From assembly GCF_022340605.1 (NCBI RefSeq), contig NZ_JAJDNQ010000018.1, positions 1 through 64,000 on the forward strand: a stretch of 64,000 nt of DNA. Direction: 5' to 3'. This DNA is from Thiohalocapsa sp. GTDB lineage: Bacteria > Pseudomonadota > Gammaproteobacteria > Chromatiales > Chromatiaceae. The notes below the pieces were generated by a model, which was given only the letters and a program-made list of their open reading frames with translations, was not told the DNA's origin and did not search any database. Positions within the stretch are counted from its first letter, which is position 1. Every line of letters begins with the position of its first letter. Shown piece by piece: positions 2,918 to 61,816 of the stretch. A program made the translations under genes and the position numbers.

Positions 2918-3071
2918 GGTTGGGTCCTGGTCGTGAGCGGCGCCGCCACGTCGGCCGGCGCCCGCGGATGCCGCGATGTTAGCGGAGGCCATGCAGCGGC
3001 GTACGTTGCGGTCTCGTGAACGGCGACGGGCTGTCGTGGGAGCGCGGCCTGCTGTGCGCCATGGAAGCGCC

Positions 3072-3140
3072 GTGGGAGCGCCGTCTTCGGCGCGACGGGG
3101 GCGGCTGGGCCGGCGATCGCGGCGAAGACGCCGCTCCCAC
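3072..3140. repeat. GTGGGAGCG inverted repeat unit (REP-like), copy 1
   Basis: A 69-base unit beginning GTGGGAGCGCCGTCTTCGG and ending in the mirror arm GACGCCGCTCCCAC. It has the same length and internal layout as the three units at 3679-3931. It lies just downstream of the REP-type transposase gene, so that gene is bracketed by its repeats. Confidence 0.85.
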
Positions 3141-3160
3141 GGGGCGGACTCAATCGACCA

Positions 3161-3631
3161 TCAAACCCAGATCGCGTCCCAGAGCGGATAGTCGCCCAGT
3201 CTGGAGCACAGGCCGGCTCGCAGCGGGTTTGCGACGATGTACCGCGCGATGTCTTTGACGTCGTCCTCCGCGCGGAGCGCGCGATCGAAATATCCCGACT
3301 GCCACACCGCCCCGCTGCGCTGGAGTTGCGCATTGATGCGATGCGCGCTGAAACCCTTCACGGCTTGCATCACCGCGTCCAGCCTGGCAGAGCCGGTGAG
3401 GCAAAGTAGCCAGTGCAGGTGATCCGGCATGACCACGAAGGCGAGGCTCTCCACATGGCCGTGCTCGTGCTGGTAGCGCAGTGCTCCGACCACCTCGCGG
3501 CCGACGTAGAGATGATTGAAGAGCGGCAGGCGCCGATCCGTGGCGGTCCGGACGTGATAGATCCGCCCTGCCTCGCTGACGCGGCCTTTGCGCAGGTCGC
3601 GGCTGTGCGGCTTATGGGATCGCGTCGTCAT
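3161..3631 (-). CDS. REP-associated Y1 transposase (RAYT)
   Basis: A 156-residue HUH/Y1-type transposase of the REP-associated (TnpA_REP) kind, which nicks and rejoins single-stranded palindromic DNA. The strand order fits: a GRIYHVRTATDRRLPLF start, the metal-binding HUH pair in MPDHLHWLL (near residue 75), then the KGFSAHRIN helix and a tyrosine-containing ARYIVANPLRAGL near the C-terminus, where the nucleophile Tyr is expected. The ATG at MTTRSHK was chosen; the longer track frame is low-complexity repeat DNA. One repeat unit lies 20 bases beyond its stop and three lie within 300 bases upstream of its start, the usual arrangement for a RAYT and its REPs. Intact by eye. Confidence 0.88.
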   Translation of the reverse strand: MTTRSHKPHSRDLRKGRVSEAGRIYHVRTATDRRLPLFNHLYVGREVVGALRYQHEHGHVESLAFVVMPDHLHWLLCLTGSARLDAVMQAVKGFSAHRINAQLQRSGAVWQSGYFDRALRAEDDVKDIARYIVANPLRAGLCSRLGDYPLWDAIWV

Positions 3632-3678
3632 GCGCCCGAGTGTACACGCTGCGCTGTCGCTGCGCCGTGCTGGCGGCC

Positions 3679-3931
3679 GTGGGAGCGCCGTCTTTGGCGC
3701 GATGAGGGCGTCGGGGCCGGCGATCGCGGCGAAGACGCCGCTCCCACGGGGCAGGCGCGGCGAGCTGGCCGTGGGAGCGCCGTCTTTGGCGCGACGGGGG
3801 CGTCGGGGCCGGCGATCGCGGCGGGGACGCCGCTCCCACAGGGCGAGCGTGACGCGTTGGCCGTGGGAGCGCCGTCTTCGGCGCGATGGGGGCGGCTGGG
3901 CCGGCGATCGCGGCGGGGACACCGCTCCCAC
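3679..3931. repeat. three-unit GTGGGAGCG repeat array with exact 92-base period
   Basis: Units start at 3679, 3771 and 3863. Each is a 69-base inverted-repeat pair (GTGGGAGCGCCGTCTT... to ...ACGCCGCTCCCAC) separated by a 23-base spacer. This array fills nearly all of the 314-base gap between the transposase and the flavin reductase-like gene. Confidence 0.9.
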
Positions 3932-3945
3932 GGGGCGCTTGGCCG

Positions 3946-6520: not shown

Positions 6521-6653
6521 GGTGATCGTTGGCTGTCCGGATTATTCGTGCTCAGGATAACGGAAGTCGGCGAACGAGCGGCGGACCGCCACAATTTGGG
6601 CGCCGTCGGTGACGCGCCCGACACCATTGTCGCTCGCGGCGCGCACGCCATCG

Positions 6654-6725
6654 CGCCGGGGACGGCGCTCCCACGGCGCGCAGTAGGCCGTGCCCGCTCC
6701 GTGGGAGCGGCGTCCCCGCCGCGAT
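6654..6725. repeat. GTGGGAGCG repeats, two units back to back
   Basis: One arm reads GCGCCGGGGACGGCGCTCCCAC (end 6674) and the other starts GTGGGAGCGGCGTCCCCGCC at 6701, so they point outward relative to the units near 3.7 kb. They sit in the divergent promoter region between the two EcsC-like genes. Confidence 0.75.
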
Positions 6726-25281: not shown

Positions 25282-28200
25282 GCCGTGCGACACTGCTGGC
25301 GCTGCTGGCCTTCCTGCTCGCGGAGCTGCTGCTGAGCTGGGCGCTGTGGGGCATGTTCCGGCTGGAGTCACGGCAGTTGCTGGCCATGCACCAGCACGAG
25401 CTCGAGCACAGTTACGCGGACACCATCGACGGCTTCGACCGACTGGTGGACGTGGTCCACGACCAGAGTATCGATACGCCGCGGGTACGGGGTCTGCTCG
25501 CGGCGCTGGCGGAGGCCGAAAATCTGCCCCCGCAGCAAGCCGCCAGCGAGCGCCGCCGGGTGCGCGGCACGCTCTACCGTGAGCTGTACGACAGCTATGC
25601 GGTGCTGCGCCGCAACGACGTGCGGACGCTGTTGGTGGTGACGCCGGACGGGCGTGCCTTTCTGCGCTTCCATCGGCCCGACCTCTACGGTGATCCCATC
25701 GCGGCGGATCGCCCGCTGATCGGTGCTGCCATCGCTACCCAGAACGCCCGCCGCGGCTTCGAGAACGGCCGCGTCGTGCCGGGCTACCGGTTCGTGCTGC
25801 CGCTGCTCGCGGACGGGCGGCTCCTGGCCGTGGTCGACTACGGCCTGTCCTACGACGCGCTGCGGCGCGTGTTGCGCCGCGCGGATGGCGGCGACGACCA
25901 CGCGAGCCGGTTTTTATTGCGGCGGGCGCCGCTGCGGCGGGTGGCGCACCCCACCGCGCTCGCGCTGTTCGAGCCGGCGGCGCTCGGTCCGGACCTCCTG
26001 GTTGAGCGTGCGCGCAGTCCGCTGCGCACGACCCCCGCCGCGTCGCCACGGCTGCCGGTGGACGCCATCGACCGGCGGCTCGCGGCCGTCCCCGCCGTGC
26101 AGCGCGCGATGGCCGAGGGCCGCAGCGCTGCCCGGCACCTGTGTCTGGGCTTCGCCGACTGCACGGCCGTCGCGCTGCTGCCGATCCCGGATAGCGCCGG
26201 CCTGACGGCGGGCTATTTCGTGACCTATCACCAGGAGCCCGAATTCGCCGCCTTGCGCGTGCAGTTCCTGGGCCTGCTCGGCGTCGGCAGTCTGCTGCTG
26301 CTGGGGGCGGGCTTCACGCTGCGGCGCTGGCTGGCATCGCGGCAGCGGTTGCGCACCATCACCGAGCACATGGCCGAAGGGCTTTACGTAATGGATCTGC
26401 GCGGGCGGATCATCCATGTCAATGACGCCGCCTGCACGCTGCTCGGCTTCGAGCGTCGCGCGCTGCTGGGCCAGGATGCGCACGTGCTGCTGCACGCCCA
26501 CAGCGACGGCGAGAGCCTGCCGGCACACCTGTGCCCGGTGCGGCATGAGCCTCGGCTCGGCAGGATCTACCGCAACGACGACGAGATATTCCGTCGCAGT
26601 GACGGCACGCTGGTGCCGGTCAGCGTGCTCGCCTCGCCGCTGCGCGAGGAGAGGCAGGTCGTCGGCAGCATCGTACTGTTCCGCGACCTCACCGAGGAGC
26701 GCGCGGCGCGCGAGCGGCTGCGGCGCGCCGACATCGCCTTCCGCAACCTCGCCGAGGCGGTGGTGGTCACGGACGCTGATGCTAACATCCAGGCGGTGAA
26801 CCGCGCCTTCACCGCCATCACCGGCTATGCGGAGGCCGAGGTGCTCGGCCGCAACCCGCGCATGCTTCAGTCCGGGCGCCACGACGGGCGCTTCTACAAG
26901 CGCCTTTGGCATCAACTCGTTCGCACTGGCCGCTGGGAGGGCGAGATCTGGAATCGGCGCAAGAGCGGCGAGGTCTACCCCGAATGGCTCAAGATCAATG
27001 CCGTCGTCGGCCGCGGCGGCACCATCCTGGGCTACGTCAGCGTGTTTTCTGACATCACCGAGCTGCGCGCCAACCAGGAGCGCCTGCGCCGGCTCGCCTA
27101 CGAGGACCAGCTCACCGGGCTCTACAACCGCAGCGCCTTCATGGAGGCGTTGCAGCAGGCGCTACAACACGCGCGCGGCGTCGGCACGCGCCTCGCGCTG
27201 CTGTATCTGGACCTGGATCGTTTCAAGCGCATCAACGACAGCCTCGGCCATGTGACCGGCGACGCGCTGCTCGAGGAAGTCGCCGGGCGCATCCGCGCCG
27301 TCCTGCGCCCCCAGGACGAGGTGGCGCGGCTCGGCGGCGACGAGTACGTGCTGCTGCTGGATGACGTGAGTGAGCGCACCAGCCCGGCGCGCGTCGCTCA
27401 CGCGCTGTTGGCGGCGGTGCGCCGGCCGATGGTGCTCGACGGCCGCCGGCTGCACATCACCGCCAGTGTTGGCATCGCCCTGTTCCCCGACGACGGTGGC
27501 GACGCCGGCACCCCGCTCAAGCACGCGGATGCGGCCATGTACCTGGCCAAGCAGCAGGGCCGCGACGGCTATCGCTACTTCACCGGCGCCATGGCCGTGG
27601 AGGCACGGCGGCGCTTCGAGCTGGAGGCCGCGCTGCGCGAGGCACTGCGCCGCGACCGGTTGCGGCTGGTCTACCAGCCCAAGGTGTCCCTGGCAGACGG
27701 CGCCGTGATCGGGCTGGAGGCGCTGCTGCGCTGGGAGCATCCGCGGGACGGACTGCTGGCGCCCGGGCAGTTCCTCGACGTGGCGCGGGACGCCGGCCTG
27801 ATGCAGCCCATCACCGAATGGCTGCTGCACGAGGCCGCCCGCCAGTGCCGCACCTGGCGGGACGCCGGGCTGCGCTGCGGCCGGATCTCGGTGAACCTCG
27901 ACACGGGCTTTTTCCAGCCGCTGCCGCTGGAGGGGCTCTTGTTGCAGATCGTCGCGGAGGCGGGCATCTCGCCGGACGACCTGGAGCTGGAGATCCTCGA
28001 GACCGCCATGCGCGCCGACGCCGAGACCGCCGCGCTGTGGCAGCGGCTGGTGGGCGCCGGCTTCGAGCTGTCCATCGACGACTTCGGCACCGGCGAGTCG
28101 TCGCTCGCACGCATCAAGCAATTGCCGGTGCGCACGCTGAAGATCGATCGCAGCTTCGTCGCCGACATCGAGCACGACGACAGCGATCGCGCGGTCATCC

Positions 28201-41421: not shown

Positions 41422-41486
41422 GCTGGTGCAAAAGGGAATCGAAGCCCGAGGTCTTCCCACGCATTGCCCGCACCCGCCGGCTCACT

Positions 41487-41620
41487 GGGAGCGCCGGCTC
41501 GCAGCCGGCCCACCCCGTGCGCGACTTTTACCGGGAGCGCCAGCTTCCAGCCGGCTCGCCGCGTGCGCGGCTTACTGGGAGCGCCGGCTTCTAGCCGGCT
41601 CGCCGCGTGCGCGACTCAGT
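41487..41620. repeat. three tandem GGGAGCGCCGGCT units, about 45-base period
   Basis: Units begin at 41487, 41533 and 41577 (GGGAGCGCCGGCT with the inverse AGCCGGCT). They are shorter and distinct in sequence from the 92-base-period array near 3.7 kb. They lie directly downstream of the second Y1 transposase gene. Confidence 0.8.
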
Positions 41621-41669: not shown

Positions 41670-42616
41670 GTCAGGTCTTGCATTCAAGCATTCTTCGGCC
41701 TGGTGCCAGCATGTGGGGCGAGCTCGGCTGTCTCTTCGAATTGGCGCACGGCCCGACTCACGGTGGAGTAATGCACGTCGAAGAAGTCGGCAATCTCCTG
41801 CATGGTGTAGACGCCGGTCTGGAAAGCCCGCGCCATGGCCTCGCGGCGGTCGCGGTAGCGGCGCGCAAACTCCACCAGGGGCTTGGCCAAGGGTCTGCGC
41901 TGGGCGCGTGGCACCTCGCGCAGCCGCTCGAGCGGCTCGCTGGCCGCGCCGCGGTGACGCTCGATGAAGCCCTCGCTGCCGAGAAAGACCTGATGGCGAA
42001 GCCCTTCCCAGACGCTCGGCTCGTCGATGCCTTGGCGGACGAAGTCCGCATAACCAGCCTGCGCACGTGCGCGCTCCGCACCGAACTGCCCGAGCAGCCA
42101 GTCCGTCTCCAGCCACGCGGGCGCGACCTCCTGCCCGACCACCGCGCGATAGCTGCTCCAGGGCCAGTCGCCTGCCTGTTGCACGATCCCGGCGCGCACG
42201 GGATTCAGCACGACGTAGCGCGCCAACTCCAGCAGATAGGCATCGCGTTCCACCAGGATAGCCTTGAAGCGCCCCTGGAAGAGGTGTCCCACCAGCCCGT
42301 GGCGCCGATTGGTGGCCTGGGTGTATACCCCGTTGAGTTGGCGCATCCCCTTGGAGAGGTTCGCCTCGGGCGTCTCCACGACGATGTGAAAGTGATTGGT
42401 CATCTCGCAATAGGCGTGACAGCGCCAGTTGAACCGGCGGCACACCTCCCCGAGCACCGTCAGCCAAACACTGCGGTCCTCGTCATCACGATAGATCGCT
42501 TCACGCCGATCACCGCGCGAGGTGACGTGATACAGCCCACCGGCCAGCTCGATGCGTAGGGGTCTGGCCATGGCTCAAAGCATAGCGGGGAGATGCTGGA
42601 TTGCAAGACCTGACCC
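41670..42616. mobile_element. insertion-like element with GTCAGGTCTTGCA ends
   Basis: The left end GTCAGGTCTTGCATT (41670-41684) and the right end ATTGCAAGACCTGAC (42600-42614) are inverted copies with one mismatch. They lie just outside the transposase frame (41684-42571). This suggests a transposable element of about 950 bases. Y1 transposases normally recognise hairpins rather than terminal inverted repeats, so the end sequences may be the hairpin arms. Confidence 0.65.
41684..42571 (-). CDS. Y1 (REP-associated-type) transposase with C-terminal HTH
   Basis: A 295-residue Y1 transposase. The N-terminal LYHVTSRGDRREAIYRDDEDR and the HUH pair in TNHFHIVVETPEANLSKGMRQLNG (near residue 60) are the catalytic core, with YVVLNPVRAGI holding the candidate Tyr. 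The C-terminal 90 residues carry TMQEIADFFDVHYSTVSRAVRQFE, a helix-turn-helix not present in the shorter transposase at 3161. The start, stop and ends are all intact. It lies beside 45-base repeats, and flanking inverted ends are visible (see the mobile element entry). Whether it is still mobile is unknown. Confidence 0.9.
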   Translation of the reverse strand: MARPLRIELAGGLYHVTSRGDRREAIYRDDEDRSVWLTVLGEVCRRFNWRCHAYCEMTNHFHIVVETPEANLSKGMRQLNGVYTQATNRRHGLVGHLFQGRFKAILVERDAYLLELARYVVLNPVRAGIVQQAGDWPWSSYRAVVGQEVAPAWLETDWLLGQFGAERARAQAGYADFVRQGIDEPSVWEGLRHQVFLGSEGFIERHRGAASEPLERLREVPRAQRRPLAKPLVEFARRYRDRREAMARAFQTGVYTMQEIADFFDVHYSTVSRAVRQFEETAELAPHAGTRPKNA

Positions 42617-61190: not shown

Positions 61191-61816
61191 GAGGATGTGA
61201 AGAAAGCACGCAAGGGATTCGTGGCGGGAGGCTGTCGTAGGTCGGGCCGACGAAGGAGGCCCGACAAGCAGGCGGTTATGGCGGAGCGCCAACCCGGTGT
61301 GGGGCCGAAGCCGAGGAATTTGGCCGAAGTCTGCACTCGTGGTCGTGGTCGTAATCGGATACTCGACGACAACGACAACGAGAGGATGGTGGGTCGGGTT
61401 AGCGATAGCGTAACCCGACCATCAACAGCGCACCGGCGTCCGTCGTCGGGTTACGCTGCGCTAATCCGACCTCCCGTAACGGCTGCTCCAGGCGGATTGG
61501 CGTGGGAGCGCCACTGCCTCTTGTGGCGCGACGACGGCTGGGCGGTTGCCTGCCGTCTGGTAGTTACTCGGGCATGGTGCGCTGCCTTGCCGCCGGTCGC
61601 GGCACCAAGAGTGCCGCTCCCACAAGAGCCACTACACCGTATGCCTGCATAATCTCTGTTGTGTGGGAGCGGCGTCCGCGCCGCGATCCGGCGCATGCGG
61701 ACATCGCGGCGGGGACGCCGCTCCCACGACATTTGCCGGGCCTTCCAGGCGGGTGCGCTACGCGAGGCCGAATGATGCCCGGACACAGCACCTGAGATTC
61801 GATTCAGGTATCCGTG
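61191..61816. repeat. cluster of four dispersed repeat families
   Basis: This 626-base gap has no supported gene. In order it holds a GTAGGTCGGG hairpin (61236-61266), a GTGGTC/GACAAC element (61337-61383), a GGGTTAGCGATAGCGTAACCC pair (61392-61472) and GTGGGAGCG units (61502, about 61600-61627, and 61673-61727). Confidence 0.8.

Follow-up and report, generated by a model that had tools for sequence, protein, structure and literature searches.

A RAYT (REP-associated tyrosine transposase) gene flanked by REPINs, that is, by pairs of inverted REPs able to form a hairpin, is known as a REPtron, and published examples of this arrangement include some in which REPINs form tandem arrays next to the RAYT. 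In Pseudomonas fluorescens SBW25, near-identical REPINs form ordered tandem clusters that include their flanks, and one such cluster lies beside each RAYT (PMC3116915). The REPtron or TnpA-REP systems of E. coli, Stenotrophomonas and Marinomonas have a Y1 gene between GTRG-tagged hairpins and pairs of a REP and an inverted REP that also occur as tandem copies; for the Marinomonas REPtron, a GTGG guide was shown to select CC (PMC8266576). Among the REP classes of fluorescent pseudomonads, of which PF13 (GTGGGAGCGGGCTTGCCCGCGAT) is an example, copy number depends on the cognate RAYT (PMC3686654). REP heterodimers have moreover been found to be preferred over homodimers, a preference that was called unexplained and for which escape from SbcCD was suggested (PMC3733652).

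The locus analysed here lies in a 64,000-nucleotide stretch of a Thiohalocapsa sp. contig (NZ_JAJDNQ010000018.1, positions 1 to 64,000; hereafter the window), and we interpret it, with a probability of about 0.9, as a REPtron in which a RAYT is flanked by its cognate REPINs and accompanied by a tandem array. Its features, together with other members of the same repeat family in the window, are as follows.

3036-3044, plus strand: lone GTGGGAGCG, a probable REP remnant with no stem after it
3072-3140, plus strand: REPIN unit 1, with REP A on the plus and REP B on the minus strand, downstream of the RAYT stop codon
3161-3631, minus strand: RAYT gene, 156 aa, with matches to NF047646, Y1_Tnp and PDB 4er8
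3679-3747, plus strand: REPIN unit 2, which opens the 92-base array, upstream of the RAYT start codon
3748-3770, unstranded: spacer 1 of the array, 23 bases, 16/23 identical to spacer 2
3771-3839, plus strand: REPIN unit 3, the middle copy of the 92-base array
3840-3862, unstranded: spacer 2 of the array, 23 bases
3863-3931, plus strand: REPIN unit 4, whose 19-base loop is identical to that of unit 1
6650-6725, unstranded: two family REPs, tail to tail (facing away), with 31-base arms that are 90% complementary
61663-61727, unstranded: a further REPIN, 65 bases, of B/B type

An earlier sequence-only reading of this DNA had proposed the unit coordinates, the starts spaced 92 bases apart and the fourth unit beyond the Y1 gene, all of which were confirmed. 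Each unit is a REPIN composed of two different GTGG-tagged hairpin REPs (A and B), inverted and on opposite strands, with the anatomy GTGGGA-GCGCCG-TCTT-CGGCGC-GA ... TC-GCGGCG-(4)-CGCCGC-TCCCAC and small differences among copies. The four 69-base units share 62-65 of 69 positions in pairwise comparisons, and their outer 25 bases on each side are identical at 46-48 of 50 positions; the two array spacers have their length in common (23 bases), and their sequence less so. When folded as DNA, each of the four units forms one long imperfect hairpin (-24 to -35 kcal/mol). Tandem Repeats Finder delimits the array at 3675-3937, with a period of 92, 2.9 copies, 0% indels and a score of 421. The motif GTGGGAGCG occurs 20 times in the window, compared with 1.66 expected, a count reached by none of 100 dinucleotide-preserving shuffles, and an Rfam scan of the window returned tRNA only.

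The Y1 transposase gene was recovered where the earlier reading had placed it, on the minus strand and encoding 156 aa, and its assignment as a RAYT is supported by a match to the NCBIfam model NF047646 ‘REP-associated tyrosine transposase’ (134.6 bits, 2.4e-39, cut-off 80); against the IS200 model it reaches 32.5 bits, under that model's cut-off of 55. The protein also matches Pfam Y1_Tnp (PF01797; 1.3e-11) and the E. coli TnpA-REP structure PDB 4er8 (3e-4), and H71-L-H73 together with Y131, read from the protein, correspond to the expected catalytic residues, with the same motifs present in homologs. Between congeners the RAYT has a dN/dS of ~0.12-0.24, and the protein has therefore been maintained. 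In the underlying alignment of 20 RAYTs, L032 and L037 were read on the wrong strand, and its invariant columns were left out of consideration; the four congeneric rows and the dN/dS values do not depend on them. Inverted, GT(A/G)G-tagged palindromic REPs flank the gene on both sides, as is the rule for RAYT/TnpA-REP genes, and a single RAYT copy is found in its own genome rather than the gene with fixed ends recurring there that would mark an IS200/IS605 element. This genome encodes eight Y1 proteins, the nearest of which is 37% identical to the RAYT over 94 residues, and the closest relatives of the RAYT outside the genus include Pseudomonas RAYTs (53-63%).

The locus thus has the inverted REP doublets, the tandem clusters with their flanks and the RAYT-adjacent cluster of SBW25 (PMC3116915), but its host belongs to the Chromatiaceae (Thiohalocapsa), almost every REPIN combines two different REPs, and part of the family resides in a MITE (see below). 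It likewise resembles the REPtron/TnpA-REP systems (PMC8266576) in its Y1 gene between tagged hairpins and in its REP pairs, tandem copies included, although the tag here is GTGG, not GTAG, and the present system is described from sequence. With the fluorescent pseudomonad REP classes (PMC3686654) it shares the head GTGGGAGC, a palindrome that starts 2-3 bases from the tag and the dependence of copy number on a cognate RAYT, whereas the stem and loop sequences and the A/B arms differ.

The sequence-only reading had taken the units for the probable REPs of this RAYT, and it had suggested as checks a genome-wide count and a survey of co-occurrence in relatives; both speak in its favor. Genome-wide REPIN counts were made with pattern searches for exact-end doublets, and flank statistics were drawn from ~87 sampled REPINs. 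In the Thiohalocapsa sp. genome itself (G000), a draft that is 87% complete, we found at least 113 REPINs, with 0 for the reversed control pattern. Across ten genomes of the genus, those that hold an orthologous RAYT, namely G000, Thiohalocapsa sp. ML1 (G001), a Thiohalocapsa MAG (G004) and T. halophila DSM 6210 (G008), contain 113, 36, 46 and 379 REPINs, respectively, and REPIN numbers track the RAYT in the remaining genomes as well (0 in G002, G005, G006 and G009; 1 in G003), with G007 and its 11 REPINs as the one exception. The variants are lineage-specific: G000 contains the strict A/B variant of the window 73 times, G004 and G008 have one copy each and the other seven genomes none; the GGCAT/GGCCT variant that adjoins the G004 and G008 RAYTs has 33 and 229 copies in those genomes, 10 in G007 and 0 in G000; and G001 uses GGCTTTAGCC both beside its RAYT and genome-wide. 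Each species' REPIN variant is therefore the one beside its own RAYT, and the link between the RAYT and the REPIN family is well supported. More broadly, among 75 homologous RAYT loci from public genomes with enough flank, 32 have a perfect-stem GTRGG hairpin at 500 bases or less, and 0 do when flanks are shuffled, under a strict test that misses short-loop REPs such as those of Pseudomonas. With this locus, the known systems now include a clean, lineage-specific RAYT/REPIN pair from purple sulfur bacteria; some close relatives share the pair and others lack it.

The 11 REPINs of G007 (L071, L073, L075) are of the G004/G008 type, and no RAYT ortholog was found in its fragmented assembly of 660 contigs; they appear as relics of that type, as would be expected if the RAYT was lost or falls into an assembly gap. 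In the more distant genomes G040, G055 and G063, GTGGGAGCG REPINs are present and a close RAYT is absent, and other RAYTs may be responsible for these REPINs.

If it behaves like the RAYTs that have been studied, the protein would recognise the GTGG-tagged hairpin in single-stranded DNA and cut beside it, and over evolutionary time it has very probably copied REPINs in this manner to at least 113 sites. One trace of such cleavage may be visible at the REPIN ends. Outside the 59-nt class described below, CC stands directly 5′ of GTGG at 20/41 and 23/41 REPIN ends, compared with a background of 10% (p = 2e-10 and 2e-13 at the two ends). This footprint fits cleavage by the RAYT at that position, as the published GTGG guide model predicts, although common ancestry of the REPIN ends may contribute to the signal.

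What distinguishes REP A from REP B, the two arms of the REPIN, is a single stem base pair (positions 10 and 19) that is swapped in a compensated manner (C-G versus G-C). Of 86 sampled REPINs in the own genome, 81 are A/B, 3 are B/B and 2 are A/A, an excess of A/B over random pairing with p = 4e-10, computed on the first 49 REPINs listed and with shared descent ignored. This is the same preference for heterodimers that was reported previously (PMC3733652), with the difference that in other species of this RAYT clade the symmetry is broken by other base pairs, GGCG/GGCC in Lamprocystis and GGTC/GACC in a gammaproteobacterial MAG. Among 37 homologous RAYT loci with a parsable REPIN, 23 have mostly heterodimers, 11 mostly homodimers and 3 are tied. 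In the A/B form the longest uninterrupted duplex of the outer arms is 9 bp, a limit that would be in line with the proposed escape from SbcCD (PMC3733652). Folding still prefers the long imperfect hairpin over two small ones, so the asymmetry weakens the long hairpin and does not abolish it, and we accordingly dropped the notion that the heterodimer proves that only small hairpins matter. An A/B asymmetry that has been remade with different base pairs in other species renders the unexplained preference for heterodimers testable.

Among the sampled REPINs (n = 87), one length class points to a different route of copying. Bacterial MITEs of DDE insertion sequences are short, non-coding elements with terminal inverted repeats and an 8-bp target duplication, and they have a larger relative that carries a transposase-like gene. 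The commonest length class, 59 nt (32/87), lies mostly at the center of a 122-123-bp element with inverted ends GGCCTTGATCATAA... at a fixed distance: both ends accompany 16 of the 87 sampled REPINs and a single end 18 more (~34 in total, about a third), at a threshold passed by 1% of shuffled flanks. At least one end was found for 28/32 of the 59-nt REPINs (15 with both) and for 6/55 of the others. An 8-bp target duplication matching at 6 or more of 8 positions is present in 10 of 16 cases compared with 0.7% expected; in the own genome, it is 8/8 in L020, L022 and L222 and 7/8 in L018, L201, L206, L207 and L211. The 59-nt class thus has both the terminal inverted repeats and the 8-bp duplication of a MITE. 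At the RAYT locus itself, none of the flanking units (3072-3931) has MITE ends, and the whole window contains one weak TIR-like match, at 26985.

The same ends delimit REPIN-free elements of 132 bp in G008, with perfect 8-bp duplications (L255, L261, L262), and, in more than one genome, insertion sequences of ~1.9 kb in which these inverted repeats and a target duplication enclose a gene.

L254:247-2133 (T. halophila, G008:C45): insertion sequence with a DUF6399 protein as its main gene, 1,887 bp, 16/16 TIR, 7/8 duplication
L272:1225-3140 (Candidatus Thiodictyon syntrophicum plasmid NZ_CP020371.1): insertion sequence with a DUF6399 gene, 13/16 TIR, 8/8 duplication GTCCAACC

Three DUF6399 proteins conserve D148, D222 and E474, the contexts of which resemble a DDE triad, and DUF6399 proteins are probably transposases. 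The protein had no match in NCBIfam or in a PDB sequence search and none in phage and viral collections, a single-sequence structure model was too poor to use (mean pLDDT 51), and we did not find DUF6399 mentioned in the literature searched. The insertion sequence was not located in the own genome, and its link to the REPIN-containing elements rests on ends common to other genomes. These elements resemble MITEs of DDE insertion sequences in their ends, their duplication and their larger relative; they differ in that the core is a REPIN of a RAYT-linked family and in that the protein of the insertion sequence is annotated only as DUF6399. A limited literature search found no description of a REPIN as the core of a MITE, which does not prove its absence.

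Taken together, these observations suggest that some REPINs of the family were captured as the core of a ~122-bp MITE and then multiplied by an unrelated transposase, probably the DUF6399 protein. We consider it likely that two unrelated machines multiply a single family, the RAYT acting on single-stranded REPINs and a DDE-type DUF6399 transposase acting on the MITE with a REPIN core. MITE ends with 8-bp duplications are the mark of a DDE-type transposase, and the RAYT alone therefore probably did not spread the family. Of the earlier claim that the transposase made and spread the family, the RAYT-REPIN link thus stands, and the account of its spread is incomplete, given that about a third of the sampled REPINs lie in a MITE. 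One may postulate a more extreme scenario in which the family owes its spread chiefly to the MITE/DUF6399 route, with the RAYT as no more than a passive neighbor. The ~34 of 87 sampled REPINs with at least one MITE end would be expected under this scenario; nevertheless, MITE ends are absent from over half of the sampled REPINs, among them all four at the RAYT locus, REPIN variants go with the RAYT from species to species, and RAYT loci well beyond the genus have REPs of their own on their flanks. We therefore consider a purely passive RAYT very unlikely. Also very unlikely is a functional role for the fixed 92-base spacing, for example in keeping bound RAYT dimers or host proteins in phase, an idea akin to the sequence-only reading's proposal that the invariant spacer reflects a structural need. 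A period of exactly 92 is kept in three copies despite spacers that have diverged to 16/23, and an eleven-copy array in G008 has a period of exactly 89 with 14-base spacers; few indels over a short span are, however, the plain expectation for duplication, and every array has its own period. In the own genome, other arrays have periods of 91 (C63), 83 (C84), 85 (C85), 98 (C86), 80-81 (C91) and 86 (C141). In the relatives, arrays directly beside the orthologous RAYTs of G004 and G008 have periods of ~81-84, and periods range from 81 to 94 overall, with a drift of 1-2 bases within arrays of G001 and G004. Elsewhere, spacers measure 12-29 bases and periods span 80-98, and these values are nearly constant only among the copies of a single array. 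We dropped the spacer as a structural ruler, as it differs from array to array. Copies of one array have spacer sequence and length in common, and separate arrays differ in both; the regular spacing therefore corresponds to the size of a segment that was duplicated locally, and regularity here reflects ancestry, not function. The 92-base array arose by tandem duplication of one REPIN together with its neighboring 23 bases, in agreement with the tandem replication or unequal crossing-over that the earlier reading had put forward.

The position of the RAYT within the genus bears on a possible movement of the whole REPIN-RAYT-REPIN cassette, in the manner of an IS200/IS605 element with REPIN ends, a scenario that we regard as possible but doubtful. 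Orthologous RAYTs occupy three places in four congeners: the interval between pyk and a flavin reductase gene in G000; beside a hypothetical gene in G004 and G008, next to ppc in G004; and a third place in G001. In G002, G005, G007, G008 and G009, pyk and the flavin-reductase-like gene are neighbors with no RAYT between them, and the ppc interval contains neither RAYT nor REP in G001 and G003. The sequence-only reading had named as evidence against itself the same repeats at the same loci in genomes that lack the RAYT; the pyk–flavin reductase interval of the readable relatives holds no RAYT and no REPIN pair, with one lone REP in G008. Within the genus, the RAYT and its REPINs have therefore shifted position, and transposition, horizontal gain and differential loss would each account for this. 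The identical loops of the outermost units (3072 and 3863) would suit movement as a unit, but the same pattern would result if the gene had been gained horizontally at separate places or if ancestral copies had been lost, the RAYT and pyk trees disagree and are both weakly resolved, and a single orthologous copy per genome argues against frequent transposition. An exact boundary of the cassette is not readable, the intergenic sequence at the empty pyk site being too diverged.

Among these results, the probable double origin of REPIN copies matters more widely than the locus itself. REPIN abundance is taken as a trace of RAYT-driven spread. Since a MITE with target duplications houses a sizeable share of the REPINs here, copy number has to be distinguished from RAYT activity; if both machines indeed contribute, REPIN counts would not measure RAYT activity alone. 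The novelty lies in an unrelated MITE that contains about a third of the full-length copies examined and that probably helped to copy them, and DUF6399, so far without a named function, gains a likely role as a transposase.

A second hairpin family was observed alongside the first. A second RAYT-like gene, in part 37-41% identical to the first, is found in G000:C95 (L005, L084) and G001:C24 (L171), where it adjoins or lies between arrays of the hairpin GGGAGCGCCGGC-loop-GCCGGC with a period of ~28 bases; this hairpin was matched 118 times in the own genome and 89 times in G001. In the window, an array of this family (41478-41613, period 44) is situated ~550 bases from another Y1 transposase gene (42158-42565), which is of the longer kind, a 296-aa open frame with a C-terminal extension. 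At several sites in G001, including L257 and L258 (C26 and C12), the MITE end described above lies ~200 bases from the second hairpin family (GGGAGCGCCGGCTTTCAGCCGGC), which suggests another mobile element that took up a REP-like hairpin.
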